A DNA stretch of 64,000 nt, from the NCBI GenBank assembly GCA_947496375.1, contig CANMCY010000007.1, positions 1 through 64,000 of the forward strand. Reading direction: 5' to 3'. Origin of the DNA: Flavobacteriales bacterium. GTDB lineage: Bacteria > Bacteroidota > Bacteroidia > NS11-12g > UBA955. The notes beneath the pieces are model-generated. The model saw only the letters and a program-made list of their open reading frames with translations, did no database searches and was not told the origin of the DNA. Numbering within the stretch: position 1 is the first letter of the stretch; the number at the start of each line of letters is the position of its first letter. This document shows positions 45,833 to 62,843 of the stretch, in pieces. A program made the position numbers and the translations under genes.

Positions 45833-48595
45833 TTAATGCTGAATCAGGGTTTTAACAGACCAAGTATGATCCTTGCTTCTGGCGTGAATCAGGTAAACTC
45901 CATTGGACCATTGTGAAGTGTTAATTTCCTCAGACTGGTTGCGGATGTACCCCCTGTAAATCATTCTGCCTGTATTATTCCAGATGGTAATTTCAGTTTT
46001 TTCTTTACTGTTTATTCTCAGTGTTTCATTTGCAGGATTGGGGTAAACGGCTAGTCCATGATTCAGAACAGCATCTTCTGTACTGTTGGGGATTTGAACA
46101 ATGGGTTGAAGTTCCATGCGCTTATTGGTAAATAAGCGATATTCACCGGCATTGAGGGAAATGGGCATATTGATATTTGTTACCCTAAGACTGTCCCCTG
46201 AAAATATTTCATACCATTTTCCGGTGTCATGAAAGTCATAGTTTGTGCTCACTGTTTTTACGTCGGTATTCGCAATTACATGCACATAATGGTCGAAATA
46301 CTGCAACCAGGCCTTTTTAACAGCGCCGCCCAGGTTGAAATTATTGTACGATGTGTGAAATACAGGGTATTTGTTTCGCAAGTTCATCATGGTAGAATAT
46401 ACCTGATGCAATTTCTGGCGATTTGGATCCTGCAGATAAGTCCAGCGAATCGGTTTCTCACCGGTGCGGCCGTTCGTGTTAATGCCCACATCGTATCCAA
46501 GTTCTCCAAATTGCCAAATCATTTTTGGTCCGGGTATACTGAAAAACAATACTGCAGCCATTTCGCAGCGTTTTAACCCTGTTGGGATTTGTTTAATATT
46601 GTATGAGCCATTGGTATTGCCAAAACTGATGTTTTTATACATCATTCTTTCCTCATCATGGCTTTCCATGTAGGAAACCAGTCTAGGATTGCCCCATCCC
46701 CGGCTTTTATAGTTACTTGCCCAGGAAATGTCATAGCTATAGCCCATGGCTATTTCTGAATAGGCGGTATTTCCATTGCCCCAGAAGTAGAAACCTTCGT
46801 TTGAAAGTTCGGTTTCTTCGCTGTTATCAGCGAAATGTTCCAGAATCAGTAATGCATTGTTATCGTATTTTCTGATTTCATCACGCATCCTCTTCAGGAG
46901 ATAAATTCGACTGCCATCGTACTGACCCCAGGCACCCGTATTTCCCAATGTGTTCTTTTGGGTAAATCCTTTTGATAAATCGAAACGGAATCCATCGGCT
47001 TTGAATTCGGTAAGCCAATATTTCAATATTCGATCCATGTATTGCTGTGTAAACTGACTTTCGTGGTTGAAATCATAACCCACATTAAAATCGTGTTTTG
47101 CAACCGGGTTTAACCAGGGGTTATCACTGGCGGGCTGGTTCAGTGCGCTGTTCCAGTAGAGGTGGCACAGGGTGCTTTGTCCGAAAACATGATTAAATAC
47201 AACATCCAGAAACACGGCTATTCCCTGTCTGTGGCATTCATCAATAAACGCTTTCAACTGGTTTGCATTGCCATAGTACTTATCCAGTGCCATGTGGTAT
47301 GATACATTGTAGCCCCAGCTTGAATTGCCTTCAAATTCATTGACGGGCATGAGTTTTATGGCAGTCACCCCCAGTTTTTTCAGGTAGGCAAGGGTGTCTT
47401 TTAACACTGTATATGAGTGTGCTGCAATAAAGTCACGTATGTGAAGTTCGTAAATATTCAGATTTGACGGATTTTTTACGTAAAAGGTATCATGTTTCCA
47501 GGAATAAGCTGCTTTACCGGGCTGAATTACCGAAATCAAGCCGGTGCTCTTGTCGGAAGGATACTTTGGCAGCCCCGGGAAATCGGCTGCGTTGATGTAT
47601 GGGTCGTTCCAGTTATCCAGCATTAGTTCGCTGAAGGGGTCTGCTTCCCGAAGCAGTCCGTCTACCAGGTATTGATATCCGTACTGTTGACCTTTCTTTA
47701 ATCCTGAAATCTTTATCCACCAGCGGTTTCCGTCAGGCGTTTTTTTCATGAAAAATTCTGGAAGCGGTTGCCAGTTGTTAAAATCGCCTATCAGGTAAAC
47801 GTATTTTTTATTGGGGGCTACCAATGAGAACAGCAGTGCTGTATCACTCAAGTAATTTGCACCGTCTGCCATTCCGGCCGGTAACGTTTCAGTCACAACC
47901 GCCGGATTGATGCTCAGTTGAAGCGTGTCTGCCGAAGTGAGATTTCCTTTTTGCGCTCTTACTACGTAGGTGTATCGACCCGGATTTCTGCCGGTTAAAG
48001 TTTTGGTAAAAACCGCGGAAGTAGTAGTATCAATCTGGATGCCGTTTTCAAACAAGGTGATTTTGGCAGATTCTGATGCGGTAATTTCAAAGTTAATATT
48101 GTCAGTGGATTCGAAAATACCGGGAATTTCTGAGGGCTTTGTGAAACTTACTTTGAGACCGGCTTCATAGACATCGGCATAAATATCAGTTGCATCAACG
48201 TTTCGGCCCACTTTACTGCCGTCTTTGTTTCTAAAAACGGCCGCTATTTTCCTGATTTTTTCGCCTGTGGGCACGCCATAAAATGTAGGAATATAAATTT
48301 TTATTTTATAAATATTATTGCCGGCATACGACATTTTTCTTGGGGCATCATCAGTGCCCCATACCCCTTTAACATAGCGCCAGTCTGACAATCCTGTGCT
48401 TAGGTTTGTGATGACACCGGTATGTATATATACATCAGGTGGCCCTAAATCCTTGAGGGCTGCATTGCCTTTGGTGGCATCATAAATAATTGTCACGCTA
48501 TCGTTTTGCGTAACAAATACCGGATCTAATGTCATCTGCGAATAACCATAGCCGAATGACATTAATGCAAAAACTATAGTAAAAAATTTTGTCAT
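45833..48595 (-). CDS. Secreted GH13 alpha-amylase with binding modules and T9SS sorting domain
   Basis: A 920-residue exported enzyme. Order: signal peptide (about 1-20); a beta-sandwich module (about 25-145, with VYIHTGVITN and AAVFRNKDGS) of the kind found in Sus-linked amylases; an Ig-like module (150-230); a CBM48-like E-set (250-340, VYLIGDFNNW); the GH13 barrel (375-760); and a T9SS type A domain (about 845-920). Catalytic residues are Asp539 (GFRFD), Glu586 (LLILEHF) and Asp647 (ESHDEERM). It probably cuts starch or glycogen at the cell surface. A terminator-like hairpin lies between it and the upstream binding-protein gene. Confidence 0.93.
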   Translation of the reverse strand: MTKFFTIVFALMSFGYGYSQMTLDPVFVTQNDSVTIIYDATKGNAALKDLGPPDVYIHTGVITNLSTGLSDWRYVKGVWGTDDAPRKMSYAGNNIYKIKIYIPTFYGVPTGEKIRKIAAVFRNKDGSKVGRNVDATDIYADVYEAGLKVSFTKPSEIPGIFESTDNINFEITASESAKITLFENGIQIDTTTSAVFTKTLTGRNPGRYTYVVRAQKGNLTSADTLQLSINPAVVTETLPAGMADGANYLSDTALLFSLVAPNKKYVYLIGDFNNWQPLPEFFMKKTPDGNRWWIKISGLKKGQQYGYQYLVDGLLREADPFSELMLDNWNDPYINAADFPGLPKYPSDKSTGLISVIQPGKAAYSWKHDTFYVKNPSNLNIYELHIRDFIAAHSYTVLKDTLAYLKKLGVTAIKLMPVNEFEGNSSWGYNVSYHMALDKYYGNANQLKAFIDECHRQGIAVFLDVVFNHVFGQSTLCHLYWNSALNQPASDNPWLNPVAKHDFNVGYDFNHESQFTQQYMDRILKYWLTEFKADGFRFDLSKGFTQKNTLGNTGAWGQYDGSRIYLLKRMRDEIRKYDNNALLILEHFADNSEETELSNEGFYFWGNGNTAYSEIAMGYSYDISWASNYKSRGWGNPRLVSYMESHDEERMMYKNISFGNTNGSYNIKQIPTGLKRCEMAAVLFFSIPGPKMIWQFGELGYDVGINTNGRTGEKPIRWTYLQDPNRQKLHQVYSTMMNLRNKYPVFHTSYNNFNLGGAVKKAWLQYFDHYVHVIANTDVKTVSTNYDFHDTGKWYEIFSGDSLRVTNINMPISLNAGEYRLFTNKRMELQPIVQIPNSTEDAVLNHGLAVYPNPANETLRINSKEKTEITIWNNTGRMIYRGYIRNQSEEINTSQWSNGVYLIHARSKDHTWSVKTLIQH

Positions 48596-48668: not shown

Positions 48669-49973
48669 TTATTCAAATACGAGTGTTGAAGTCGCAGAAG
48701 CTCCATCAGCAGCAACTACTTTTACAAAATAGGTTCCTGCGCTTGGCTTCATGATGGTGCCGAAATTAACACCTGCAGCATAAGTATTTTTAGCAACTAC
48801 TTTACCTGAAATGTCGAGCAATTCCACGGTATGAGCCATGTTTTTCTTGGTGAAAGAAACATTGGCAGAAGAAGTAGCAGGGTTAGGATAAATACCGTTG
48901 AAAACAGCATTTGATTTTTTAACGCCAACATTAAGTGGGATGTAAACCACACAGCTGTCGTATTTGTAGATGTTCACCATCACATCGGCAGTAGCGTTGC
49001 TCAAATCTATGGTACGGTTGAATCCACCCAAACCATTGTCAGAACCACATCCACCGGTTTTGAAATCGCCTTTTTCGCCGTCTATATCGCCACCACGGCC
49101 GTTGAAGTATTTGTAGGCGTAGTTGCCTGGTGACATGCTCACGGTAAGTTCGTAAACATCATCATTGTTGGCATCTGTTAAACGAAGCGTGTCTTTGCTC
49201 CAGTTGCAAAGTGATTTACCGGCGATTGCATCCTGGAAGTTGCCGGCAACATAAAGGCCAGCAGAATTTAAGATTACATCACCCATGTAAACTCGGAAAG
49301 TAACATTGATAGGAGTTGACAGTGCAGGTATTTTATAAGAAACGTCACCTGATACAGCACCACCTACAGCTACGGTATACTGGCGGTTAGAGCCAACCAG
49401 TTTCCATCCGCACTGATTTTCAATACCCCATTCCCAGCTACCTTCTTCAATGTCAGATTTTAGGGTCCAAACATTGTCACCGGCAGTGGTGTCACCATTG
49501 GTGCCATTGTCAAACATATCCTTGGCTGACCAGCTGAACATTGAACCTTTCAATTTAATACTGGTTTCTTTTTTGCTCAAATCACGTATGGTGAAAATTA
49601 CAGGATGTGTTGGCTTGCTTTTGGGAATAACTATTTCCATTTGACCGGTTACTGCACCTGAAGCTACGGTGAACTTGTAGTTTGGGCTGCCGGTGGTAAG
49701 CCATGCGCCATCTTGGTCGGTTGCTCCCCACTCGTATGTGCCGTCTGCAACGCCCGCTACTTTTAGCGACCAAATATTGTCATTGGCAGTGGCATCGCCG
49801 TTGGTGCCATCGTCAAAAGCAGAAACATCAGCCCAGTTGTTGAACTGGCCCTTGAATTTGATAGCGGTTTTGGTTTTGTTGTTTCGATCGTCAACCGTAA
49901 GGGTTACGTCAGCTTGAGCATAGAGGCCCGCTACTGCCGCAAAAGCTCCAATGGTAAGGTAGTGTTTAATCAT
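48669..49973 (-). CDS. Secreted multi-module putative alpha-glucan-binding protein with T9SS sorting domain
   Basis: A 434-residue exported protein with no catalytic domain. After the signal peptide (about 1-20) come two clearly duplicated beta-sandwich modules (about 21-118 and 119-217) sharing FKGxxxxW...FDxGTNGDxTAxDNxWxLK and a YEWG/WEWG element. A third, CBM20/48-like module (about 218-325) has LYVAGNFQ and YELTVSMSPGNYAYKYFNG. The T9SS type A domain is at about 350-434. I infer surface binding of starch or glycogen from its place next to the amylase and from the module style. The promoter carries a candidate operator. Confidence 0.8.
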   Translation of the reverse strand: MIKHYLTIGAFAAVAGLYAQADVTLTVDDRNNKTKTAIKFKGQFNNWADVSAFDDGTNGDATANDNIWSLKVAGVADGTYEWGATDQDGAWLTTGSPNYKFTVASGAVTGQMEIVIPKSKPTHPVIFTIRDLSKKETSIKLKGSMFSWSAKDMFDNGTNGDTTAGDNVWTLKSDIEEGSWEWGIENQCGWKLVGSNRQYTVAVGGAVSGDVSYKIPALSTPINVTFRVYMGDVILNSAGLYVAGNFQDAIAGKSLCNWSKDTLRLTDANNDDVYELTVSMSPGNYAYKYFNGRGGDIDGEKGDFKTGGCGSDNGLGGFNRTIDLSNATADVMVNIYKYDSCVVYIPLNVGVKKSNAVFNGIYPNPATSSANVSFTKKNMAHTVELLDISGKVVAKNTYAAGVNFGTIMKPSAGTYFVKVVAADGASATSTLVFE

Positions 49974-50017: not shown

Positions 50018-50034
50018 AGTGTAATTCCGACACT
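50018..50034. promoter_or_regulatory. Candidate operator 1, AGTGT-N7-ACACT
   Basis: An inverted repeat AGTGTAATTCCGACACT in the divergent promoter region between the T9SS binding-protein gene and the neopullulanase-like gene. Its GTGT-N7-ACAC core is shared with sites at 53370-53390 and 54182-54196. Probably bound by the Nudix-type regulator of the locus. Confidence 0.6.
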
Positions 50035-50078: not shown

Positions 50079-51917
50079 ATGAAATTTTTAAGTCCAAAAA
50101 GTATCCTTTCTTTTTTCTTATTTCTTCAATCCATTATCCTATTCGGGGCTCACCACATTCATAGGTGTGATCCTCCGTTCTGGTTTAAAAATATGGGCCA
50201 GGAAAAGCTTCAATTGCTCTTGTACGGCGATTCCATTAATATGGCGAAAATTCTGGTTAAAGGTGGACCACGGCTGGTTTCAGAAGCAACTGGTATTAAT
50301 GCCGGTTACAGAATATTGTATTTGGTAATTGGGCCGCAGCAGGGTGACTTTACCATTGAGACTTCTTTAAATGGTCGCAAATGTAAATTTCTGTATGCGG
50401 TCAGAGAAAAACCACGTTCTGGAGCGATGATAAGCCCTGCAGACAGAATGTATTTGCTGGTGCCGGATCGGTTTGCCAATGGAAATGTGAGCAATGACAA
50501 TAACCATGGTATGACGGAAAAGGCAGACAGAGGAGCCCTGCATGGAAGGCATGGCGGCGATCTAGCCGGAGTTTCGCAAAACCTAAATCATATCAAAGAC
50601 CTTGGCTTCAATGCATTGTGGATGACCCCCTTGTTGGAAAATAATCAGCCATCCCAAAGCTACCATGGTTATGCCTGCACCGACCATTACCGAATAGATC
50701 CCCGTTTCGGCAGTTTTGAAGAATATGTAAGTCTGGCTGAAAAAGCCCGTGGAACCGGAATAAAATGGGTTTTAGATGTTGTGTATAATCATATTGGGAA
50801 CGAACATCTGTTGTATAAAAAGCGAATAGCGGATGACTGGTTTCACCTGCGCGATACTTTTTTTAGGAGTAACTATCGCGTAGCGACCCTGAGTGACCCC
50901 TATGCCGCCCAATCTGAGGTTACCGCCATGTTGGATGGATGGTTTGATTATCACATGCCTGACCTAAACCAGGACAACGCCCATGTGCAGCGCTACCTGA
51001 TTCAGAATACCCTGTGGTGGATTGCAGTGTCGGGTGCTTCGGGTGTGAGAATAGATACCTATCCTTACTCGCAGCCCTCGTTTTTGCACCAGCTAAATCT
51101 TGATCTTAAAAAAGCTTTTCCCGATTTATTTGTATTTGGCGAAACCTGGGAGCATACGCTAGCCGCGCAGGCCATTTTTGCCCCCAATCATTTTAATAAA
51201 AGCCCCAATGCCTTGCCGGATGCTGTTACGGATTTTCAGTTTTGTTTTGGTTTGCAACAGGCGCTGAATGAGCCATTTGGTTGGAATACAGGCATAAGCA
51301 GGATGTATTACCTGATGGCATCCGATTATGTATATCAAAATCCCCGATACCTGGTAACATTTGCCGATAACCATGATCTAAACCGCATGCATGCTACATT
51401 TGGCAGAAATGTGGCAAAAACAAAGATGGCACTTGCCCTCATGTATTTAAGCAGGGGAATTCCATGTGTTTTTTATGGAACCGAATGGTTGTTTTCCGAT
51501 ACGGGTGCCCATGGTGCCATCCGCAGAGATTCACCGGGAGGTTGGGCGGGAGATTCCAATAATGGATTTGAAATCGCAGGAATAAGCCCGCAACAGGCCG
51601 AAATTCATGGTTACCTGAAAAACCTTGCCGAAATTCGTTCACAATATGCAACGCTATTTGAAACAGGCAAACGTACCCAATACATTCCCCAACATGGCCT
51701 TTATGCATTTTTTATTGAAGGGGATAAAGAAATACTGGGTGTTTTTGTGAATCAATCGGACATGTCTATCAGTGTAAATCCTTCAAAATATCCAGATATT
51801 CCTGCCATATGGGCAAATGGGACGGTTATTCTGAATCCGGAACCCAGCGGTCTTAAGGTTCCTTCTGTTTCACCGATGGCAATTTCTGTTGTACGCTACC
51901 CTAAGCAAGGCAAATGA
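50079..51917 (+). CDS. GH13 neopullulanase/cyclomaltodextrinase-like amylase (SusA-like)
   Basis: A 612-residue exported enzyme. Hydrophobic signal segment (about 8-24), an N-terminal cyclomaltodextrinase-type beta domain (about 25-115, which keeps FWFKNMG and LQLLLYGDSI), then the GH13 barrel from about 120. Catalytic residues are Asp326 (GVRIDTYPY), Glu355 (VFGETW) and Asp433 (FADNHDLNRM). Lacks a T9SS domain, so it probably works in the periplasm, trimming imported maltodextrins, as SusA does in Bacteroides. A candidate operator lies about 45 bp upstream of its ATG. Confidence 0.92.
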   Translation: MKFLSPKSILSFFLFLQSIILFGAHHIHRCDPPFWFKNMGQEKLQLLLYGDSINMAKILVKGGPRLVSEATGINAGYRILYLVIGPQQGDFTIETSLNGRKCKFLYAVREKPRSGAMISPADRMYLLVPDRFANGNVSNDNNHGMTEKADRGALHGRHGGDLAGVSQNLNHIKDLGFNALWMTPLLENNQPSQSYHGYACTDHYRIDPRFGSFEEYVSLAEKARGTGIKWVLDVVYNHIGNEHLLYKKRIADDWFHLRDTFFRSNYRVATLSDPYAAQSEVTAMLDGWFDYHMPDLNQDNAHVQRYLIQNTLWWIAVSGASGVRIDTYPYSQPSFLHQLNLDLKKAFPDLFVFGETWEHTLAAQAIFAPNHFNKSPNALPDAVTDFQFCFGLQQALNEPFGWNTGISRMYYLMASDYVYQNPRYLVTFADNHDLNRMHATFGRNVAKTKMALALMYLSRGIPCVFYGTEWLFSDTGAHGAIRRDSPGGWAGDSNNGFEIAGISPQQAEIHGYLKNLAEIRSQYATLFETGKRTQYIPQHGLYAFFIEGDKEILGVFVNQSDMSISVNPSKYPDIPAIWANGTVILNPEPSGLKVPSVSPMAISVVRYPKQGK

Positions 51918-51983: not shown

Positions 51984-53336
51984 CTATTTCACCTTGATAA
52001 GCTTACCGTCATTCACATAAATCATGGAAACCGCGGCCAAAAGCAGCATAAATCCTGCGGTAGCCAGCGCATAAATGGCTTGATTGTCGAAAAGGAATGA
52101 AACCATCGGCCCTGCCAGCAGGGCACTTACTATCTGGGGTATAGTGATGAAGAAATTGAAAATGCCCATGTATATGCCCATTTTGCCTGCAGGTATGCTT
52201 CCTGCCAGAATGGCATAGGGCATTGCAAGGATGCTGGCCCAGGCCATGCCGACACCAATCATGCTGTATACAAGCATGTCAGGGTCAGTAATAAAAAACA
52301 TGGATATGAGGCCAACGCCGCCACATACCAATGAAAATGCATGGGTTTGTTTCCTGCCGATTTTTCTGACAATGGCGGGTAGAATGAGGGCATAAATGGC
52401 ACTGATGCCATTGTAAATACCAAATAATATACCCACCCAGTCGCCGGCTTTACCAAATGCTATTTTTTGGGCACCGTCATATTCCGAAATTCCCACAGGC
52501 AAACCAAAGGCATTTTCGGCGATTCCTTTGGTGGTGTAAACCCACATACAAAATAAACCAAACCAGCTGAAAAACTGTACCAGACCCAGTTGCAACATGG
52601 CTTTTGGCATTTTTGCAAAATCCCTGAAAATCTCGGATAGACCTGCTGACTCACTTTGTGGGTTCTCCCCATGGTATTTTGCGTAGGTTTCGGGATCATA
52701 TTCTTTGGCAAACAACACCGTAACCAGAATACAACCCAGGAAAAAAGCGGCACCTATGTAGAATGAGTATACCACGTTATCGGCCACCATCCCTTTGGGA
52801 GCAGAATTGCTCACGTTGAAAACATTGGTCATCATCCACGGCAACCAGCTGCCTAAGACTGCACCAATACCGATGAGAAATGTCTGTATACTAAAGCCAA
52901 GGGTGCGCTGTTTGTCATTCAGATTGTCCGCAACCAAGGCCCGAAAGGGCTCCATAGCCACATTAATGCTGGCATCCATCAAGGCGAGGAATACAGCACC
53001 GAATAGCAGGGCAGATTTACCGGCAAACCAGGCAGCACTGTTTGGCAGCAAGACAATTGCAACGCAGCAAAGCAGGGTGCCGACCAGAAAATATGGTTTG
53101 CGTCTGCCTAAAAATGTCCATGTTTTATCGCTGAAGTAACCAATTAGTGGTTGTACCAGCATTCCTGTGAGCGGCGCTACTAGCCAAAACCAGCTCAATT
53201 CGTGCACTTTGGCACCAAAATCTTCCAAAATACGGCTTGCATTTCCATTCTGAAGTCCGAAACCACACTGTATCCCCATGAAGCCAAAGCTCATCCAGAT
53301 AATTTGCGCGGTGGTAAGGTTGGGTTTGTTTTCCAT
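51984..53336 (-). CDS. MFS sugar transporter, SLC45-like
   Basis: A 450-residue inner-membrane carrier with about twelve membrane segments. The N-terminal half has the SLC45/sucrose-porter pattern: SWFWLVAPLTGMLVQPLIGYFSDKTWTFLGRRKPYFLVG. Such carriers sit in many Bacteroidota alpha-glucan loci and are presumed to bring maltose or maltodextrin into the cytoplasm; here that is inference from context, consistent with the GH65 phosphorylase. The promoter region contains candidate operator 2. Confidence 0.88.
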   Translation of the reverse strand: MENKPNLTTAQIIWMSFGFMGIQCGFGLQNGNASRILEDFGAKVHELSWFWLVAPLTGMLVQPLIGYFSDKTWTFLGRRKPYFLVGTLLCCVAIVLLPNSAAWFAGKSALLFGAVFLALMDASINVAMEPFRALVADNLNDKQRTLGFSIQTFLIGIGAVLGSWLPWMMTNVFNVSNSAPKGMVADNVVYSFYIGAAFFLGCILVTVLFAKEYDPETYAKYHGENPQSESAGLSEIFRDFAKMPKAMLQLGLVQFFSWFGLFCMWVYTTKGIAENAFGLPVGISEYDGAQKIAFGKAGDWVGILFGIYNGISAIYALILPAIVRKIGRKQTHAFSLVCGGVGLISMFFITDPDMLVYSMIGVGMAWASILAMPYAILAGSIPAGKMGIYMGIFNFFITIPQIVSALLAGPMVSFLFDNQAIYALATAGFMLLLAAVSMIYVNDGKLIKVK

Positions 53337-53369: not shown

Positions 53370-53390
53370 ATAGTGTCAATAACACACTAT
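53370..53390. promoter_or_regulatory. Candidate operator 2, ATAGTGT-N7-ACACTAT
   Basis: A perfect 7-bp-arm inverted repeat ATAGTGT/ACACTAT with a 7-bp spacer, 34-54 bp upstream of the MFS transporter ATG. It is the longest of the three sites sharing a GTGT-N7-ACAC core and overlaps the likely -33 region. Confidence 0.65.
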
Positions 53391-53401
53391 TTCATTTAAA
53401 A

Positions 53402-54112
53402 TTAAATCTGGTGAAACAAAGATTTATCAAAACGGTATAGACTTGCCGGTTTATGGGCCACACCCTTCTGCTTTTCATTCAAGGGAACAATAAATGAAGT
53501 GCGAAGAATTTTTCGCCTGAAGTTTCTCTTATCAAACGTGTCAACCAATATAGCTTCATATAATTTTTGAAGCTGGGCGAGTGTAAATCGGTCAGGCAAA
53601 AGTTCATAACCTAGTGGTTCCAGGTAAATCTTGTGTTTGAGGTAATTGAGCGCTTTGTCCAGAATCTCATTGTGGTCAAACCCCAGCTGAGGAACATCTT
53701 TCACTTTGACCCAGACGGCATTTCTGGCAAAACTGGAGGGTGTGAGGTTAAAACGTTGTTTGTTGATTAGTGAAGTATAAGCAACTGTAATGACGCGGGC
53801 CTCCGGATGTGCTCGAATGCTTCTAAGCCAGTCTTGGTCGTGTTTTTTGCTGATTCGGTTGGGGTCTCCAAACGTATATACCTGCTCCAGATAAATATTG
53901 GAAAGTCCCGTTAACTCGCATAAAACGCGCTGTGCCGCCTCATCTAGATTTTCATCTTCATAAATAAGATTTCCGGGCAGGGCTTTAATTTCATCCACTT
54001 TCTCCGTGTTGCCGGCAGAGCGTTCAATCAGCAAAACTTCCAGTTCTTGATTATTAAAACCAAAAATAACACAATCTACAGAAACATTGGGATTAACAGC
54101 ATGGTCAGTCAT
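53402..54112 (-). CDS. Nudix-like transcriptional regulator (NrtR/AraR type)
   Basis: A 236-residue protein starting at ATG 54112. The N-terminal Nudix fold (about 10-145) has a Nudix box region GNLIYEDENLDEAAQRVLCELTGL in which the catalytic REUxEExGU pattern is broken (RVLCELTGL). Pyrophosphohydrolase activity is therefore probably lost. A C-terminal winged helix (about 160-230) contains LPDRFTLAQLQKLYEAILVDTFDKRNFRRKI, typical of Nudix-related regulators such as NrtR and Bacteroides AraR. It sits between the transporter and the catabolic operon, so it is the obvious local regulator; its ligand may be a sugar or sugar phosphate. Confidence 0.87.
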   Translation of the reverse strand: MTDHAVNPNVSVDCVIFGFNNQELEVLLIERSAGNTEKVDEIKALPGNLIYEDENLDEAAQRVLCELTGLSNIYLEQVYTFGDPNRISKKHDQDWLRSIRAHPEARVITVAYTSLINKQRFNLTPSSFARNAVWVKVKDVPQLGFDHNEILDKALNYLKHKIYLEPLGYELLPDRFTLAQLQKLYEAILVDTFDKRNFRRKILRTSFIVPLNEKQKGVAHKPASLYRFDKSLFHQI

Positions 54113-54126
54113 AGCAAGGGGGTGCA

Positions 54127-54134
54127 CAAATATA
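54127..54134 (-). promoter_or_regulatory. TAnnTTTG promoter box for the Nudix-type regulator
   Basis: The minus strand reads TATATTTG, 14 nt before the regulator's ATG at 54112. Confidence 0.55.
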
Positions 54135-54173
54135 ATGACTTTGCTAATATTCATAATATTGAACATGTATTGG

Positions 54174-54204
54174 TTGGGTATGTGTAATTATTACACTAAG
54201 TTTG
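54174..54204 (+). promoter_or_regulatory. Promoter of the kinase/pgmB/GH65/GH13 operon
   Basis: TTG at 54174-54176, a 20-bp spacer, and TAAGTTTG at 54197-54204: the best full match in the window to the Bacteroidota promoter (TTG at -33, TAnnTTTG at -7). The ATG of the kinase gene is 16 nt downstream. Candidate operator 3 fills the spacer. Confidence 0.75.
54182..54196. promoter_or_regulatory. Candidate operator 3, GTGTAATTATTACAC
   Basis: A perfect inverted repeat GTGTAA-TTA-TTACAC exactly between the -33 and -7 elements of the catabolic operon promoter, the classic position for a repressor site. Shares the GTGT-N7-ACAC core with sites at 50018-50034 and 53370-53390. Confidence 0.7.
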
Positions 54205-54220
54205 CAGATATTAGAATCTA

Positions 54221-55093
54221 ATGATAATTGTAGCTGAAAGTGGTTCTACCAAATGCGATTGGCTGATCAACCACAATGATGGTAAGGTGCTGGAAACGCA
54301 CACTATGGGTTTTAATCCGTTCTTTCATCAGCCGGACGAGATTATGACCCATCTTAGGGGAAATCAGAATCTCAGCCAGGTTGCTTCGAAAGCTACGGCT
54401 GTTTACTTTTATGGTGCAGGTTGTTCCAGTCCGGACCGTAATGAAGTGATTTTATCTGCCCTGGTACAGTTTTTTCGCAATGCACACTGCGAGGTCAACC
54501 ACGATTTAAATGCTTCAGCATTTGCCACCTGGGATGGAAATCCCGCCATAACCTGCATAATCGGCACAGGCAGTAACAGCTGTTATTATGATGGGGTTTC
54601 GGTTTCTGAACAGGTGCCTGCACTGGGTTATATTCTGGGTGACGAAGGCAGTGGATCCTATTTTGGGAAAAAACTCATTGCCGATTATCTGTATAAAAGA
54701 CTTCCTAAAGAGTTACAGGATGCTTTCTTTGAGCAGTACAAACTGCAAAAAGAAGAAATTTTTCATCAGGTATACAATACCAATAAGGCCAATGTATTTC
54801 TTGCCTCCTTTATGCGCTTCATTGTGCCCCACAAGGAACATGCCTATATTCGGGAAATGGTATATGAAGGCCTTTCCAGGTTTGCCGAAATTCACATTTG
54901 CTGCTATTCAAACTTCCGCGAGGTTCCGGTTCATTTTGTGGGCTCAGTGGCTTTCTATTTTACCGAAATTCTTCAGCAGGTAGCAGTAGAAAAGGGTTTC
55001 AGTCTGGGGAAAATTGATAAAAACCCAGGTATGTCATTGCTGAAATATCACCTGACAAGAGAGGCAACGCTCAACAATATAGAAAAAGTATGA
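54221..55093 (+). CDS. BadF/NagK-type sugar kinase, probably acting on glucose here
   Basis: A 290-residue ASKHA-fold kinase similar to N-acetylglucosamine kinases of Bacteroidota. The phosphate-1 loop reads AESGSTKCDW (residues 5-14), the phosphate-2 loop reads IIGTGSNSCYYDG, and GYILGDEGSGSYFGKKL follows. It opens the catabolic operon and overlaps pgmB as ATGA. In this setting the expected substrate is free glucose released by the GH65 phosphorylase and the amylases; N-acetylglucosamine is the annotation by similarity alone. Confidence 0.85.
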   Translation: MIIVAESGSTKCDWLINHNDGKVLETHTMGFNPFFHQPDEIMTHLRGNQNLSQVASKATAVYFYGAGCSSPDRNEVILSALVQFFRNAHCEVNHDLNASAFATWDGNPAITCIIGTGSNSCYYDGVSVSEQVPALGYILGDEGSGSYFGKKLIADYLYKRLPKELQDAFFEQYKLQKEEIFHQVYNTNKANVFLASFMRFIVPHKEHAYIREMVYEGLSRFAEIHICCYSNFREVPVHFVGSVAFYFTEILQQVAVEKGFSLGKIDKNPGMSLLKYHLTREATLNNIEKV

Positions 55094-55740
55094 TACGCGG
55101 TGTCATCTTTGATCTGGATGGCGTGATTACGGATACTGCCGTTTATCATTATCAGTCATGGAGACGCATTGCAACAGAGGTGAATTTTGATCTCACCGAA
55201 GAACATAATGAACAACTGAAAGGGGTGAGCCGGGCGGAAAGTCTGGATAGAATTCTTGGCTGGGCCAATGCACTGAGGACAGAAGAGGAAAAGGCAAAAC
55301 TGCTCGTTCAAAAGAATGAACATTACCTCACACTCATTGAATCGCTGAATGACAAGGATATACTGCCGGGAATCGTTGCTTTTTTAGAAAATATCAGAAG
55401 TGCAGGCATTAAAACCGCAGTGGGTAGCAGCTCCAAAAACGCCCATTTTATTTTAAACAAACTTAGGCTCATAGATAGTTTTGATGCTGTTGTTGATGGC
55501 AATATGGTAAAACAAACCAAGCCGGATCCTGAAGTTTTTATATTGGCCGCCCAGCTTCTCGGTCTGCAACAGCAAGAATGTATTGTAGTTGAGGATGCCG
55601 AGGCAGGCGTTCTGGCAGCAAAAGCCGCCGGTATGAAAGTGCTTGGAATAACTGCGCATGGTCAGCTTCATCAGGCAGATTTATGTACGCACAATCTGCT
55701 TGAAAAGGATGCACAGTTTATTCAGCAATTTTTTTCTTAA
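55090..55740 (+). CDS. pgmB: Beta-phosphoglucomutase
   Basis: Converts beta-glucose-1-phosphate to glucose-6-phosphate. A 216-residue HAD-superfamily protein with the nucleophile motif FDLDGVITDTA (Asp8 and Asp10), the cap domain, VGSSSKNAHFILNKL, the Lys-containing KQTKPDPEVF and the metal site VVEDAEAGVLAA. Its coupling to the kinase upstream (ATGA) and to GH65 15 bp downstream shows the phosphorolytic maltose pathway. Confidence 0.94.
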   Translation: MIRGVIFDLDGVITDTAVYHYQSWRRIATEVNFDLTEEHNEQLKGVSRAESLDRILGWANALRTEEEKAKLLVQKNEHYLTLIESLNDKDILPGIVAFLENIRSAGIKTAVGSSSKNAHFILNKLRLIDSFDAVVDGNMVKQTKPDPEVFILAAQLLGLQQQECIVVEDAEAGVLAAKAAGMKVLGITAHGQLHQADLCTHNLLEKDAQFIQQFFS

Positions 55741-55755
55741 TAATGGTTAAATGAT

Positions 55756-58056
55756 ATGAAGGATTATATTAAAATAGATCCGTGGAATATTATCGAGGAG
55801 GGCTTTGATCCTGCATTGCATAAGGTTTCCGAAAGCTTGTTTAGCATTGGTAATGGCCGAATGGGGCAGCGTGCCAATTTTGAAGAATCTTACTCAGGTA
55901 AAACCCTTAGAGGTTCATACCTGGCAGGGGTGTATTATCCCGATAAAACAAGGGTTGGCTGGTGGAAAAACGGGTATCCGGAATATTTTGCCAAGGTGCT
56001 CAATTCGGTTAACTGGATTGGGATAGACATATCGGTGGATGGGGTTGCAGTTGATTTGGCCCATATTCAGCCCAAGGGATTTCAGCGTAAACTGAATATG
56101 CAACATGGGTTGCTTGAGAGGCACTATACTATTGAGCTTCAGAACGGCAATCAGTTGCAATTTAAATGGACAAGGTTTTGCCACATTACAAGAAAAGATT
56201 TGGGTGTAATTCGCCTGGAAATTGCGGCCACCAAGGATTGTGAGCTCACTATTAATAGTTATCTCGATGGTGCAGTTTACAATCAGGATTCCAATTACGA
56301 TGAGTTTTTCTGGGAACAGACTTCAGCCGGTGCTTACGAAAAGGCAGGCGTGGTATGGGTGCGTCAGCAAACCCGTAAAACCGGATTCAAAGTATTAGCG
56401 GGTGCCAAGACACAAGTTCAGCAGGGAAGTGAGATGATTCCGGGTACATTGTCATCCGGTGAGATGCGGGCCGAGGAGCATTACCGGCTCCTGTTAAAAT
56501 CCGGGCAAACCCTGAAACTTGAAAAATATGTGGCGGTGCTTACCGATATGTACCATCAGCCCGCACAATTCGAAGATATTGTAAAAAGTACAATATCTGC
56601 CGCAGTTGATACCGGATTTGAACAGTTGCTCGAGGAGCAAATACATGGCTGGGCTGATATCTGGAAGCAGGCGGATATTCTGATTGAAGGTGATGATGCC
56701 GCTCAGCAGGGTATCCGATTCAATATTTTTCAGTTATTCCAGACCTACAATGGGGATGATGCCCGCCTGAATATTGGTCCAAAAGGATTTACAGGTGAAA
56801 AATACGGTGGCAGCACTTATTGGGATACGGAAGCCTATTGTATTCCATTTTATCTGGGCACTGCCTCACCGGAGGTTTCACGAAATTTGCTGTTATACCG
56901 GTATCAGCAATTGCCTAAAGCCATTGAAAATGCTGAGAAACTCGGTTTTTCAGGCGGAGCGGCATTGTATCCTATGGTCACCATGAATGGGGAGGAATGC
57001 CACAACGAATGGGAAATAACCTTCGAAGAAATTCACCGTAACGGTGCCATTGCTTATGCCATTTACGACTACATCAATTACACCGGAGATGCTGATTACA
57101 TGGCCTCACATGGTCTTGAGGTGCTTATTGGTATTGCCCGATTCTGGGCCCAGCGGGTAAATTGGTCCAACGATAAAAAGAAGTTTGTGATGCTGGGTGT
57201 TACAGGGCCAAATGAGTTTGAAAACAACGTCAATAATAACTGGTACACCAATTATATTGCATCCTGGTGCATGCGTTATGCTGCCGAACAGTGTGAATGG
57301 CTAAAAACTGCCAATCCTTCAGCAATGAATGCGATTTCCGGCAAAACTGCCCTGAGTACCGAGGAAGTGTCTAACTGGAAACACATTCAGGCCAATATGT
57401 ATTTTCCTTTCGATTCGGACCAAAATGTGTTTTTGCAGCAGGATGGATTTCTGGATAAAGAACTAATCCCGGTTAGTGATTTGCCCGCTTCGCAGCGTCC
57501 CATTGTGGAACACTGGAGTTGGGACCGGATCCTTAGAAGTTGTTACATAAAACAGGCCGATGTGCTGCAGGGTTTTTATTTCTTTGAGGATGACTTTGAC
57601 GCAGATGCACACCGCAGGCATTTTGATTTTTACGAGCAGTACACTGTGCATGAATCTTCTTTGTCGCCCTGTATTCATAGCATTTTGGCCAATAAGATTG
57701 GCAACCATGAAAAAGCGTATGAATTTTACCTGCGCACCTCACGCCTGGACTTAAATGATATCAACAACGATACGTGCGACGGTTGCCATATTACCAGCAT
57801 GGCAGGTACCTGGATGACCATTAGCAAGGGATTTGCAGGCATTCGGGTAAAAAATGGAAAACTGCACTTCAACCCGGCGCTTCCCAATCAGTGGAAGTCT
57901 TTGACATTTAACCTGAGATTCAGGGAAAATCTGTTTTACATCCATATAGCGGGAGATGGTGTGCAGGTTACCAATACTTCAGGACCCGATACCAGTGCTG
58001 TAATCAACGGAATTGAAAAGCATTTGCCTCAGTCAAATCCGGTTTCTGCTTCATGA
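55756..58056 (+). CDS. GH65 disaccharide phosphorylase (maltose/trehalose/kojibiose type)
   Basis: A 766-residue cytosolic enzyme without signal peptide. It follows the GH65 order: N-terminal beta-sandwich (about 1-260), helical linker, (alpha/alpha)6 barrel (about 310-690) and a C-terminal beta domain. The active-site region NEWEITFEEIHRNG (417-430) holds the general acid Glu. With phosphate it splits a disaccharide into beta-glucose-1-phosphate and glucose. The adjacent pgmB fits this product, and the surrounding alpha-glucan genes favour maltose as substrate. Its stop overlaps the start of the next GH13 gene. Confidence 0.93.
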   Translation: MKDYIKIDPWNIIEEGFDPALHKVSESLFSIGNGRMGQRANFEESYSGKTLRGSYLAGVYYPDKTRVGWWKNGYPEYFAKVLNSVNWIGIDISVDGVAVDLAHIQPKGFQRKLNMQHGLLERHYTIELQNGNQLQFKWTRFCHITRKDLGVIRLEIAATKDCELTINSYLDGAVYNQDSNYDEFFWEQTSAGAYEKAGVVWVRQQTRKTGFKVLAGAKTQVQQGSEMIPGTLSSGEMRAEEHYRLLLKSGQTLKLEKYVAVLTDMYHQPAQFEDIVKSTISAAVDTGFEQLLEEQIHGWADIWKQADILIEGDDAAQQGIRFNIFQLFQTYNGDDARLNIGPKGFTGEKYGGSTYWDTEAYCIPFYLGTASPEVSRNLLLYRYQQLPKAIENAEKLGFSGGAALYPMVTMNGEECHNEWEITFEEIHRNGAIAYAIYDYINYTGDADYMASHGLEVLIGIARFWAQRVNWSNDKKKFVMLGVTGPNEFENNVNNNWYTNYIASWCMRYAAEQCEWLKTANPSAMNAISGKTALSTEEVSNWKHIQANMYFPFDSDQNVFLQQDGFLDKELIPVSDLPASQRPIVEHWSWDRILRSCYIKQADVLQGFYFFEDDFDADAHRRHFDFYEQYTVHESSLSPCIHSILANKIGNHEKAYEFYLRTSRLDLNDINNDTCDGCHITSMAGTWMTISKGFAGIRVKNGKLHFNPALPNQWKSLTFNLRFRENLFYIHIAGDGVQVTNTSGPDTSAVINGIEKHLPQSNPVSAS

Positions 58057-60512
58057 AAAGGGCAAAGCAAATTATATCGGTAGTTTTTCTTACTGTTTTT
58101 CTATTCTCTTGCGGAATTGTAAGAAAGAAAACAGTGTGGATTACCTATTTACATCCTTCCACACCTGTGATGCCGGCATGGCTTGCCGGTGATACCACCA
58201 CGCTATACACGGGCGATATTTTTCCGAATCAGAAGGTGGGTGTGGTGGTTGCGGGTTCAACTGACAAAACCGGAGAACTTTCCTTGCTGCCGGGTCTTTC
58301 ATCAGATACTTCCATGGTGAACCAAGCTTTTAGGGTGGTTTCTCCCAAGAATGGTGTTCTTAATGCGGTTACCCTCGTAAATCTTCAGAATAGTAAGCGC
58401 TGTGACTGGGTATTGAAAAAAACGGTTATTATACCTGTAACCCTCACCTATAAGGGAAAAGTGGAAAAGGGTATTTTTGTGAAAGGCGATTTTAATGCCT
58501 GGAATTCAAAATCGCACCCGCTACAAAAAATCAGTGATACCGTTTATCAGACTACCCTTTCACTGGATCCGGGGGAATATGGATATCAGTTTGTGGCAGA
58601 TGGGAAAGGTGTATTTGATGTTTCCAATCCCAACAGAAGGAGCAATGGTTTTGGGGGCGAGAATTCCGTATTAACTGTGGCTGAAAGCAGGCCTGTTCCG
58701 CACATCGTAGCGAAATGGGAAAATCAAGCATTGCATTTGCATTTCGAGCAGCCACTAAAGACTGAAAAACTTCATGTTATTGCCCTATGGGATAATCAGA
58801 TTATTTATCAGACTGTTAATAGTCAGGATAAAAACAGGGTGGTACAGTGGTCCAATCCGGAATTAACCATCCCCGCAGATGCTAAGTCAATCAAGAGAAG
58901 CTTTATCAGGGTGTTTTGTGCAACGGAATTTGTACACGGAAACGATCTGTTGATTCCGCTTGAATATGGAATACCCGTAACGGACCCAAAGCAACTTTCA
59001 CGGGAAGATCTGGAAAAAACCGTTATGTACTTTGCGTTTGTTGACCGCTTTAACAACGGTGCAAAAAGCAACGATAAACCGCTGAACCATCCCCAGGTAA
59101 CGCTCAGGACCAATTTTCAAGGTGGAGATATACAGGGTATAACGCAAAAGATACAGTCCGGATATTTCGACAGCATGGGGATGAATGCCATCTGGATTAG
59201 CCCTATTTCTAAAAATCCCAAGGGCGCATGGGGAGATTTTCCTGATCCGCATGTGAAGTTCAGTGGCTACCATGGTTACTGGCCCGTTTCCAATACGCTC
59301 ATTGATGAAAGGTTTGGAAACGCATCAGCCCTGAAACAAATGCTGTCTGAAGCGCATAGCCGTAACAATAACGTTTACCTGGATTATGTGGCTCATCATG
59401 TGCACAAAGAACACCCTATTTACAGGCAGCATCCTGATTGGGTTACGCCCTTGTATTTACCCGATGGGCGAATGAACACGGAATTGTGGGATGAGCAGCG
59501 TTTAACGACATGGTTCGATACATTTCTGCCAACCCTGGATTTGGGAAGGCCCGAAGTGGCAACCTACATGGTAGATTCTGCCCTGTATTGGCTTAGGACA
59601 TTTGATTTTGATGGTTTTAGGCACGATGCAACAAAGCATATACCTGATAATTTCACAAGATTGCTCACCGCCAAAATTCGCACGGAAATTGAACCTGCTA
59701 GAAACCAACGTATATACCAGATTGGAGAAACCTATGGCAACACCAAGTTGATTGGTTCATATCTGGGCCATGGATTGCTCGATGCGCAGTTTGATTTTAA
59801 CCTGTATGATGCGATGCTGAGAACCTTTGCCTGGAATGGTTCCTTAACCGGACTGGTAACGGAGCAACTGCGAAGCATAGGTCAATACGGACATCATCAC
59901 CTTATGGGCAATATCACCGGCAACCAGGACAAACCCAGGTTTATGTCTTATGCCGATGGCACCATAACCGGCAAAACACCTTGGAACGAAGGGAAAAAGA
60001 TGGGACATCTAGGTGATTTGCCCCTGAAGAACGATTCTGCATTCCAGAAATTTCTTCATTTTTATACGTGGTTGTTTTCCGCACCCGGCATCCCTGTGGT
60101 TTATTATGGCGATGAGATTGGTATGACAGGAGGCAATGATCCGGGAAACAGAAACATGATGCAGTTTGATAGCTTAACCTCGCAGCAATCTCAATTTAAA
60201 ACAAAAATAGCAGAACTGGCCAAACTCAGAACGGGCAGCATGGCCCTGTGCTACGGAGATTATAAGGTTTTGAGCTACAATGATTCGCAGGTTGTGATTT
60301 GCCGCAGGTACCTGAATGAAATGGCTGTAATGGCCATAAACAGAGGCAAAAAACCTATGGAACTTGATGGGTTTCAAAAAACTATCGATATTTTTAGCCA
60401 TAAACAAATAGCCGTTTGGTCTAATATGGACAGCGCAGAATTATTGGGTATGCGCAAAGGAACAATGCTGAAACCCCATCAATCGGCCATCTTCATTTAC
60501 TCGAATAAATAA
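58053..60512 (+). CDS. GH13 amylase-family lipoprotein with CBM48-like module
   Basis: An 819-residue lipoprotein: lipobox FLFSC (Cys20), an N-terminal region (about 25-125), a CBM48-like E-set (about 133-195, VKGDFNAW ... DPGEYGYQFVADG), and a GH13 barrel from about 320. Catalytic residues are Asp525 (GFRHD), Glu559 (QIGETYG) and Asp626. Before the last Asp the usual NHD reads NQD, a His-to-Gln change at a substrate-contact position. Probably on the outer membrane, periplasmic or surface face unknown. It overlaps the GH65 gene by 4 bp. Confidence 0.9.
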   Translation: MKRAKQIISVVFLTVFLFSCGIVRKKTVWITYLHPSTPVMPAWLAGDTTTLYTGDIFPNQKVGVVVAGSTDKTGELSLLPGLSSDTSMVNQAFRVVSPKNGVLNAVTLVNLQNSKRCDWVLKKTVIIPVTLTYKGKVEKGIFVKGDFNAWNSKSHPLQKISDTVYQTTLSLDPGEYGYQFVADGKGVFDVSNPNRRSNGFGGENSVLTVAESRPVPHIVAKWENQALHLHFEQPLKTEKLHVIALWDNQIIYQTVNSQDKNRVVQWSNPELTIPADAKSIKRSFIRVFCATEFVHGNDLLIPLEYGIPVTDPKQLSREDLEKTVMYFAFVDRFNNGAKSNDKPLNHPQVTLRTNFQGGDIQGITQKIQSGYFDSMGMNAIWISPISKNPKGAWGDFPDPHVKFSGYHGYWPVSNTLIDERFGNASALKQMLSEAHSRNNNVYLDYVAHHVHKEHPIYRQHPDWVTPLYLPDGRMNTELWDEQRLTTWFDTFLPTLDLGRPEVATYMVDSALYWLRTFDFDGFRHDATKHIPDNFTRLLTAKIRTEIEPARNQRIYQIGETYGNTKLIGSYLGHGLLDAQFDFNLYDAMLRTFAWNGSLTGLVTEQLRSIGQYGHHHLMGNITGNQDKPRFMSYADGTITGKTPWNEGKKMGHLGDLPLKNDSAFQKFLHFYTWLFSAPGIPVVYYGDEIGMTGGNDPGNRNMMQFDSLTSQQSQFKTKIAELAKLRTGSMALCYGDYKVLSYNDSQVVICRRYLNEMAVMAINRGKKPMELDGFQKTIDIFSHKQIAVWSNMDSAELLGMRKGTMLKPHQSAIFIYSNK

Positions 60513-60513
60513 C

Positions 60514-61878
60514 ATGAAAAAGCACATAATACTTTTAGCCGGAATGCTCGCGCTTGGGTTCAATTCAGTGATTGCACAACCTGCAGACTGGCCCGAAAAT
60601 CCCATTATTTACGAGGTGAATTTACGCCACCATACGCCAGAAGGTACCCTTGCGTCATTTAAGCAGGAATTACGCCAATTAAAGGGGCTAGGGGTAAATG
60701 TACTGTGGTTTATGCCTGTGCAGCCCATTGGTGAGAAAAAACGCAAAGCCAAGGGCGATCTTTTCGTGGAAGATATCAAAGAACCTGCTGAAAAGTTGCG
60801 TTATCTGGGAAGTCCTTATTCTATCAGGAATTATACCCAGGTTAATCCGGATTTTGGTACCCTGCAGGAATTTAAATCTGTGGTAAAACTTTGCCATGAA
60901 ATGGGAATGAAAGTGATTCTGGACTGGGTTGGTAATCACACCGCATGGGATCATCCATGGATTGCCGCGCATCCTGACTGGTATACAAAAGATAAAAATG
61001 GCAATATCACCGATCCGCTGAATGAGGAAGGCAATAGCATGGGCTGGACTGATGTGGCAGACCTGAATTATGGCAGCCAGGAAATGAGAGCGGCGATGAT
61101 CCAGGATATGAAATATTGGGTTAAAGAATGCGATATCGATGGTTTCAGGTGTGATGTAGCCATGAGCGTTCCGGCTGATTTTTGGGATGCAGCCAGAAAA
61201 GAAATTGAAACGGTAAAACCCATCTTCATGCTCGCAGAGTCCGAAGAGCACGACATGGCGCAATTTAAGGGAGCGTTTAACGCTTATTATGGCTGGGAAT
61301 TACATCATGTTATGAACCAGGTTGCCAAGGGAAAACGCAAAGCCACATTTCTTGATACAACCCTGTCTAACAAGCTGAAAAAGTTTCCGGTTAATGTTTA
61401 CAGCATGAACTTCATTACCAATCATGATGAAAACAGCTGGAATGGAACCGAATTTGAAAGAATGAAAGATGCATGGAAAGCCATGGCAGTGTTTACTTTC
61501 ACTGCTCCCGGTATACCACTTTTATATACCGGTCAGGAATATGGAAATAATCGCAGACTGCGTTTCTTTGAAAAAGACACGATACAAAAACGCCATGATT
61601 TTAATTACTTCGGATTTTACTCCTTGCTTTGTGATTTAAGGAAGTACCACGGACTTGGCACATCAGCAGCGTCAAACAACATATCATTCATTCCCCAAAA
61701 GTCCCCTAATCTGCTGGTATTTACCCGGGGCAATAAAGAACATACTTATTGGGTTTGCCTAAACCTTTCAGAAAGCGCATATAAAAAGCGTATTAAGATT
61801 CCAAAAGGTGCGCTATTGATGGGTACCCCGGGCAAAAAACTCGGCCCCTGGGCTTATAAAGTTATTCAATTGAAATAG
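60514..61878 (+). CDS. Exported GH13 alpha-amylase, compact form
   Basis: A 454-residue enzyme with a signal peptide ending near residue 22 (NSVIAQ) and a single GH13 barrel. Catalytic residues are Asp214 (GFRCDVA), Glu242 (LAESEE) and Asp305 (FITNHDE), all in standard order. No binding module, lipobox or T9SS domain, so it is probably periplasmic. It starts 1 bp after the upstream GH13 stop and ends the operon at a strong bidirectional terminator. Confidence 0.92.
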   Translation: MKKHIILLAGMLALGFNSVIAQPADWPENPIIYEVNLRHHTPEGTLASFKQELRQLKGLGVNVLWFMPVQPIGEKKRKAKGDLFVEDIKEPAEKLRYLGSPYSIRNYTQVNPDFGTLQEFKSVVKLCHEMGMKVILDWVGNHTAWDHPWIAAHPDWYTKDKNGNITDPLNEEGNSMGWTDVADLNYGSQEMRAAMIQDMKYWVKECDIDGFRCDVAMSVPADFWDAARKEIETVKPIFMLAESEEHDMAQFKGAFNAYYGWELHHVMNQVAKGKRKATFLDTTLSNKLKKFPVNVYSMNFITNHDENSWNGTEFERMKDAWKAMAVFTFTAPGIPLLYTGQEYGNNRRLRFFEKDTIQKRHDFNYFGFYSLLCDLRKYHGLGTSAASNNISFIPQKSPNLLVFTRGNKEHTYWVCLNLSESAYKKRIKIPKGALLMGTPGKKLGPWAYKVIQLK

Positions 61879-61955: not shown

Positions 61956-62843
61956 TCAGCAACCGCCCTGGTTGAACTGATAAATCATTAGGTCATCAAT
62001 AGCATCATTGGAGTTCACCAGATTGGGTTTCACAATTTGGTATTCTATGCGATAGATTTTGGTGCTTGCAGGTATTTTGAAAAACTTTTCCGGAATAATA
62101 CTGAACTGGAAGATTCCCTTGGCGGTCTGCTTCATTTTTAGTTGCGGAAAATCCCCAACGCGTTTTGCATTAGAAGCAATCCTGTAGGCGGTTCCTGCTG
62201 CATCGTAAGCAATGGGAAACACATACAAATCTGTGGCATTTTGCATGCTTACTTTCTCTTCTGCAGTGTTATTGTATATGATACTAAATACATCAGCTGT
62301 AGTGGTAATCATGGTGTCTTTTTTTGTGCCTTTTCCTACCGGAATGGTTTGGATTTTTACTACCGGACCTGATGGTGGATCTACCGAAATGGTTAAATCT
62401 TCGGTTTTCTTGTCAGGATCTCCGTATCCACCGCCGTCTTTGGGTTTTACAAGGAAATGAAAATCTTCTTTATAAACAGCTGCAGCATCGCACTCAAAGA
62501 AAGTGGTTGGTGTAAATGTATAGCTGTAAACGCCTTCAGATTCCTTGGTCATTTTAAGGGCCTCATTGCTGCTTTTCCATGCTGCAGAGCCGGTTCCGTT
62601 GGCCATGGGGTGGCCAGCGGGATGTTCCTTGGGTTTCCAGATCCACAGGTACATGTCTTCAGTCATTGCAATATCAACAATGCCATAGTCATTTTTGGTC
62701 AACTTGAGGTTAACCATAATTTTACAGGGTTTTGCGGGATCAAATTCGTCCGGTTTATCCAGAAAGGCAGCTTGTCCGTATACATTTACAGAAAAAAATC
62801 CCATGAGGATTCCTGCCAAAATTGAAAAACTATATTTTTTCAT
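61956..62843 (-). CDS. Sus-locus accessory binding protein (DUF4961-like)
   Basis: A 295-residue exported protein with signal peptide to about residue 24 (NVYGQ) and two successive beta-sandwich modules (about 30-150 and 160-290). The first (MYLWIWKPKEHP ... GVYSYTFTPTTFF ... FHFLVKPKDGGGYGDP) resembles the N-terminal module of the T9SS amylase at 45833 (VYIHTG ... NNIYKIKIYIPTFY ... AAVFRNKDGS). Position after SusD and an ATGA overlap with the gene before it suggest a role like SusE/SusF in glucan binding. The DUF4961 name is from memory and tentative. Confidence 0.7.
   Translation of the reverse strand: MKKYSFSILAGILMGFFSVNVYGQAAFLDKPDEFDPAKPCKIMVNLKLTKNDYGIVDIAMTEDMYLWIWKPKEHPAGHPMANGTGSAAWKSSNEALKMTKESEGVYSYTFTPTTFFECDAAAVYKEDFHFLVKPKDGGGYGDPDKKTEDLTISVDPPSGPVVKIQTIPVGKGTKKDTMITTTADVFSIIYNNTAEEKVSMQNATDLYVFPIAYDAAGTAYRIASNAKRVGDFPQLKMKQTAKGIFQFSIIPEKFFKIPASTKIYRIEYQIVKPNLVNSNDAIDDLMIYQFNQGGC

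Follow-up and report, generated by a model that had tools for sequence, protein, structure and literature searches.

A predicted T9SS-exported, non-catalytic alpha-glucan-binding protein with two CBM48-like modules at a Flavobacteriales GH13 and SusCD locus

The product of a gene at a Flavobacteriales locus for alpha-glucan use is most likely a secreted, enzyme-less protein that grips starch or glycogen by means of two uncatalogued modules, termed here X1 and X2. We assign a probability of about 85% to the reading in which this 434-residue protein is a T9SS-exported, non-catalytic alpha-1,4-glucan binder, with Trp-pair platforms in X1 and X2, a stiffening loop, a third module (module C), uptake through SusCD and control through an NrtR-like operator. 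The predicted non-catalytic binding of starch or glycogen is strongly supported by fold, sequence profiles, tryptophan conservation, gene neighbourhood, co-occurrence and a shared operator. Architecture, fold, conservation, neighbourhood and the shared palindrome were computed here. The gene and its parts, all within the window (the whole stretch of 64,000 nucleotides that was analysed), are as follows.

48669..49973, minus strand: predicted gene for a non-catalytic alpha-glucan-binding protein (434-aa open reading frame; Pfam and NCBIfam searches; AF2)
49917..49973, minus strand: putative signal peptide, residues 1-19, with no Cys and hence no lipobox (reading of the translation)
49617..49916, minus strand: module X1, residues 20-119, CBM48-like fold, DDGTNGD loop, W47/W82/W91 (NF041940; AF2; VIA-align)
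49317..49613, minus strand: module X2, residues 121-219, duplicate of X1, W148/W182/W190 (alignment to X1; VIA-align)
48936..49319, minus strand: module C, residues 219-346, CBM20/CBM48/X25-type (VIA-align; profile A4)
48681..48893, minus strand: T9SS sorting tail, type A (TIGR04183; VIA-align)

The reading frame proposed at 48669-49973 by a first-pass annotation, made from the DNA letters, is real and lies on the minus strand. X1 and X2, each of about 100 residues, are identical at 43 of 96 aligned positions and align with a score of 194, whereas no score in 1000 shuffles exceeded 64, which bears out the two duplicated beta-sandwich modules that the annotation had described. Two of its shared signatures, FDxGTNGDxTAxDNxW and the YEWG/WEWG element, are present in both modules; FKGxxxxW holds for X1 only, X2 having LKG instead of FKG, and the shared form is [FL]KGxxxxW. 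It had also correctly recognised a T9SS protein (TIGR04183 at E = 9e-11, above cut-off; PF18962 at E = 4e-9), the tail resembling the C-terminal domain of mirolase (8qb1_A, Z = 10.2 by VIA-align), with no enzyme domain, none being found in the 434-residue protein by Pfam and NCBIfam searches. A phmmer comparison of the protein with PDB sequences gave chance matches only (best E = 0.22). The whole-protein AF2 model, built with an alignment of 29 sequences, has a mean pLDDT of 87.4; a Foldseek search with it was uninformative, being dominated by unrelated multi-Ig chains, and the modules needed separate examination.

Modelled alone by AF2 with 53 X modules, X1 has a pLDDT of 95.9 and takes up the CBM48 fold, a beta-sandwich of the AMPK glycogen-binding-domain type. 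The best VIA-align match is 1z0m_C (Z = 9.0, rmsd 1.9, 69 residues aligned), and the top matches are AMPK, SNF1 and SEX4 (Z 8.8-9.0, rmsd 1.8-2.3, 69-73 aligned). All 50 of the 50 VIA-align matches listed for X1 are CBM48 proteins (AMPK/SNF1 beta, SEX4, Fae1B) or CBM20 proteins, and the top Foldseek match is a CBM20 (E = 9e-4). For this model the Z values are moderate, and their weight comes from the absence of unrelated folds among the matches listed. X2 is matched to the glycogen-binding domain of AMPK beta (6c9f_B) with Z = 9.7, rmsd 2.2 and 75 residues aligned. The X modules share with the CBM48/AMPK beta domain the fold (Z 9.0-9.7) and two glucan-binding Trp positions, but differ from it in an inserted DDGTNGDxxAxD loop and an EWG motif. 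SusE, SusF and CBM58, CBM69, CBM82 and CBM83 are absent from the structural neighbours listed, an absence that does not amount to exclusion.

At the amino acid sequence level both X modules score above the curated cut-off of NF041940, "choice-of-anchor X" (58 bits against 25), a 37-residue motif model with no assigned function that spans only the motif part, about one third, of each module; no mention of "choice-of-anchor X" was found in the literature searched. None of the 53 X modules matched Pfam CBM_48 or AMPK1_CBM at E up to 0.01, no other Pfam family was found in them save for one stray match in one module, and the X profile gave no significant match to PDB sequences (best E = 0.48). Iterated profiles collected 90 X modules and 140 C modules. 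By profile comparison, hhalign gave 95-97% for X against C and 88-94% for X against the CBM48 domain of the locus's 819-residue GH13, while eight other locus domains, used as controls, reached at most 0.5%. The values were 2-4% for X against the CBM48 domain of the adjoining T9SS GH13 (0.1% in another comparison) and 14% against one single CBM48 sequence. Plain pairwise alignment of X1 and X2 with C gave scores of 30 and 33, where the shuffled sequences averaged 31 and 29, and since the scores do not exceed the shuffles the relation between X and C is visible by profiles only. The fold of X1 and X2 is not new; the two modules belong to a branch that has diverged within the CBM48/CBM20 fold.

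Conservation was assessed in an alignment of 53 X modules (A3), comprising X1, X2 and 51 of 60 non-redundant X matches; nine low scorers were left out (two each from loci L105 and L120, four from L131 and one from L133). W28 and W63 are present in all 53 modules and W72 in 52, and 81 of the 90 X matches overall have Trp at all three positions. In the profile alignment W28 and W72 fall on the glucan-binding Trp columns of CBM48, named W100 and W133 for AMPK in the excerpted text of PMC4339375, which also describes the equivalent Trp pair of PTST as required for starch binding. The DDGTNGD motif occurs as well in Ig-like repeats that have no Trp triad (loci L105 and L131; other settings), and the motif alone is therefore uninformative on starch. 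This pattern, read from sequence, suggests that the loop is structural and that the Trp residues bind sugar. The occurrence of the loop in repeats with no link to starch (L131) would also suit spacer modules of a generic kind, stabilised by calcium and binding no ligand. We regard that explanation as extremely improbable: the Trp triad, kept in the 53 core modules, is missing from those repeats, and the sole A3 row without W72, locus L084 (genome G002, contig C4), comes from a genome with no GH13 match and from a gene without the palindrome described below. Decay or repurposing is possible at L084.

Module C, for which the first pass had suggested a CBM20/48-like domain, is a sandwich of the CBM20/CBM48/X25 type, sub-threshold in Pfam and clear by profile and fold. 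Its model has the CBM20 fold, matching 2z0b_A with Z = 10.4, rmsd 2.1 and 96 residues aligned (VIA-align). The C-module profile (A4) matches 31 PDB sequences at E up to 0.01, namely pullulanase, glucoamylase, AMPK beta, CGTase, an alpha-amylase, BT3088 (SGBPdex), LSF1, DSP4 and SIP2, and it reaches the CBM48 domain of the 819-residue GH13; hhalign gave 99% for C against CBM48. In Pfam the window's C module alone gave sub-threshold X25, AMPK1_CBM and CBM_48 matches and no family, CBM_20 included, at E up to 0.001, and among 30 C modules CBM_20 was matched in 7 and X25 in 17. The fold is shared with CBM20 and X25 domains (glucoamylase SBD, CGTase E domain, pullulanase X25) at Z of about 10, but the window's module lacks their second Trp; W258 is retained, and the second Trp is absent in this clade.

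The T9SS amylase given as a neighbour in the first pass is encoded by the GH13 gene with a T9SS tail that follows on the same strand, and another GH13 gene lies upstream in divergent orientation:

45833..48595, minus strand: GH13 with DUF4961, CBM48 and T9SS tail, 73 bp downstream (open reading frame, Pfam, NCBIfam)
50079..51917, plus strand: divergent GH13, cyclomaltodextrinase/SusA-like (open reading frame, Pfam)
51984..53336, minus strand: MFS sugar transporter (open reading frame, Pfam, NCBIfam)
53402..54166, minus strand: NrtR-like regulator, Nudix + NrtR_WHD (open reading frame, Pfam, NCBIfam)
54221..55093, plus strand: BadF/NagK-like kinase, a tentative name (NF046058 match far below cut-off)
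55090..55740, plus strand: beta-phosphoglucomutase-like protein (open reading frame; name from reading)
55756..58056, plus strand: GH65, maltose phosphorylase-like (domain search)
58053..60512, plus strand: GH13 with AMPK1_CBM/CBM48 domain (domain search)
60514..61878, plus strand: GH13, 454 aa (domain search)
61956..62843, minus strand: DUF4961 protein of the SusCD operon (domain search)
62840..63313, minus strand: DUF5004-like lipoprotein (sub-threshold match)
63313..63999, minus strand: SusD, C-terminal part (domain search); SusC is next, beyond the window

Four of the five GH13 proteins of the genome are encoded at this locus, and the X motif occurs twice in the genome, both times within the 48669-49973 gene. 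The type A tail is found in a genome with a T9SS, as expected of a T9SS substrate: SprA is present as two pieces on two contigs (C13 and C6), and 76 of the 78 T9SS-tail matches listed are above cut-off. The N-terminal DUF4961 stretch of the T9SS GH13 (45833-48595) is a Pfam domain that is also found in the SusCD-operon protein at 61956-62843.

The protein is predicted to work like SusE and SusF of Bacteroides thetaiotaomicron and yet is no member of that group. It shares with them a non-catalytic nature, tandem beta-sandwiches of starch-binding type and a place in a SusCD starch system. SusE and SusF are, in the excerpts of PMC9112005 and PMC8211771, lipoproteins of the susCDEF operon with X25 modules, whereas the 434-residue protein has no lipobox, its signal peptide containing no Cys, carries a T9SS tail, lies beside GH13 genes and has two main modules of X type. 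Nor is it encoded directly downstream of susCD, where DUF5004-like and DUF4961 genes occupy the place. Because the locus also encodes SusC, SusD, DUF5004-like and DUF4961 proteins, the best reading is that the protein acts beside these and not instead of them. Of the proposed new type of starch- or glycogen-binding protein, the predicted binding stands on fold, profile, Trp residues and context, and the suggested use in place of SusE/SusF has no support in this genome. Sas20/Sca5 of Ruminococcus bromii is likewise secreted and non-catalytic and binds starch through tandem modules with four Trp, but is an amylosome protein with X25 modules, and no T9SS tail is reported for it in the excerpts of PMC9112005. 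No T9SS starch-binding protein of this kind was recognised in the literature searched, mostly titles and abstracts.

A search for the repeat signature in other genomes found X in 25 of the 108 genomes of the order and GH13 in 64, with both in 24 (Fisher p = 5e-6, kinship ignored); all 108 were counted because a smaller set of 24 genomes was hand-picked. The X gene adjoins a GH13 gene in 20 of the 25. Of the other five, G093 has a contig that stops at this point, G066-G068 carry the X gene beside genes for NrtR-like and SusC proteins, and in G002 there is no GH13 match. A sample of the phylum (296 genomes) yielded matches with E of 1e-6 or below in 27 genomes; outside the window's genome these were at 8e-14 or weaker and mostly partial. 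GH13 was present within the fetched stretch at 25 of 58 X loci from named genomes, including two of Marinimicrobia (L085, L091) and one labelled Dehalococcoidia (L083), and was not found at 33, where some contigs end nearby. Architectures at the same place vary (XXC, CXC, CCXC and C-only), and a C-only relative sits inside a SusC-SusD-DUF5004-DUF4961 gene row in L087/L088.

Within the genus the T9SS GH13 directly follows the X gene, an arrangement that could be expected if the protein were a subunit serving the T9SS amylase for docking or as a scaffold, its sandwiches binding the enzyme or the surface of the cell and not glucan. Protein contacts are often mediated by beta-sandwiches, and SusE has been reported to aid starch uptake independently of its own starch binding (a reference title in PMC11093988). 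We nevertheless consider a docking role unlikely, as the CBM48 fold of X holds a Trp pair that hardly varies and the family persists next to differing GH13s and, in Saprospiraceae, with no GH13 nearby and the palindrome retained. The choice of ligand is a separate question, since the presence of feruloyl-esterase CBM48 modules among the structural neighbours of X1 means that the fold does not fix it. Some of those modules may bind another glycan, such as xylan or beta-glucan. That X binds such a glycan would agree with Fae1B among the neighbours and with an X module beside GH43 in Marinimicrobia (L095), but is very unlikely given the GH13, GH65 and SusCD genes of the window's locus and the co-occurrence of X and GH13 in the order.

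A shared palindrome links the gene, read as that of an alpha-glucan binder, to its neighbours. The sites, all from motif search, are as follows.

50018..50034, no strand: operator-like palindrome AGTGTAATTCCGACACT, divergent promoter region of the X gene and GH13
53372..53388, no strand: operator-like palindrome AGTGTCAATAACACACT, upstream of the MFS gene
54181..54197, no strand: operator-like palindrome TGTGTAATTATTACACT, between the NrtR-like and BadF-like genes
contig C7 67754-67770: palindrome 15 bp before susC, with 1 mismatch

The consensus AGTGT-N7-ACACT was derived from the three window sites, and the susC site and those of relatives were found afterwards. With at most one mismatch it lies at the three promoter positions in the window and in five congeners, and it was found upstream of 28 of 30 genes of the family (11 exact; two start codons corrected by hand) compared with 2 of 183 unrelated neighbouring ORFs. 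Its conservation extends over the order and to several Saprospiraceae; it was found at none of five SusC-like genes of relatives and at no Marinimicrobia genes. Genome-wide it occurs at 56 places against 61 for the reversed control, and is enriched only by position at this regulon's promoters. A first operator guess, ATACAANNNTTGTAT, showed no enrichment and was dropped. The palindrome is probably the operator of an NrtR-like regulator, for which the NrtR-like protein of the locus is the candidate, and the gene at 48669-49973 seems to be turned on along with the starch-digesting genes. AraR is a published NrtR-family regulator of sugar (arabinose) genes in the excerpted text of PMC4666351, and the shared palindrome outlines a putative NrtR-like-controlled starch regulon, a role for the regulator family next to the arabinose one.

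Glucan binding, metal binding and a surface location are predicted for the 434-residue protein. In the mechanism that we propose, it would be exported via the T9SS and would hold alpha-1,4-glucan (starch, glycogen or maltodextrin) outside the cell. The conserved Trp pair of each module, W47/W91 in X1 and W148/W190 in X2, would serve as the platform for the sugar. The sandwich would be stiffened by the conserved DDGTNGDxxAxD loop, which is probably a site for a metal (Ca2+). C would be a third module of starch-binding type, perhaps weaker because its second Trp is missing. Two or three sites in a row would give avidity for the polymer and keep the substrate near the co-encoded T9SS amylase, oligosaccharides could then pass in through SusCD, and the NrtR-like regulator, bound to the operator, would switch the gene along with the rest. 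This offers a testable function, with predicted binding-residue positions, for a motif family known in databases only as "choice-of-anchor X". It also suggests that Bacteroidota with a T9SS supplement the SusCD system with non-catalytic glucan binders that are soluble or attached to the surface. We lean, by a small margin of confidence, towards a broader proposal: that the X module, as defined by "choice-of-anchor X" together with the FKG-W/EWG-W triad, founds its own CBM family, derived from CBM48, binding alpha-glucan and containing a metal loop of its own, present in 1-4 copies in Bacteroidota and Marinimicrobiota and, in Bacteroidota, T9SS-exported as a second, non-lipoprotein starch-capture layer under an NrtR-like operator regulon.

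One congener (G073) has neither X nor GH13. Its locus L166 (contig C21) is a decayed copy, in which GH65, MFS and bPGM genes are fragments, the NrtR-like gene is split in two frames and the kinase-like gene is intact. Marinimicrobia proteins at L094 and L095 have a C-C-X architecture, the L095 gene having a PorV-like gene upstream and a GH43 gene downstream. Large proteins of about 1150-1680 residues with one X module are encoded in MAGs of Bacteroidota and Chlorobiota (L108-L110, L113, L114, L116, L119 and L123-L126); at L108 the protein additionally contains X25, lamin-tail and PKD domains and carries a T9SS tail, and at L109 an HSP70 (dnaK-like) gene lies upstream.
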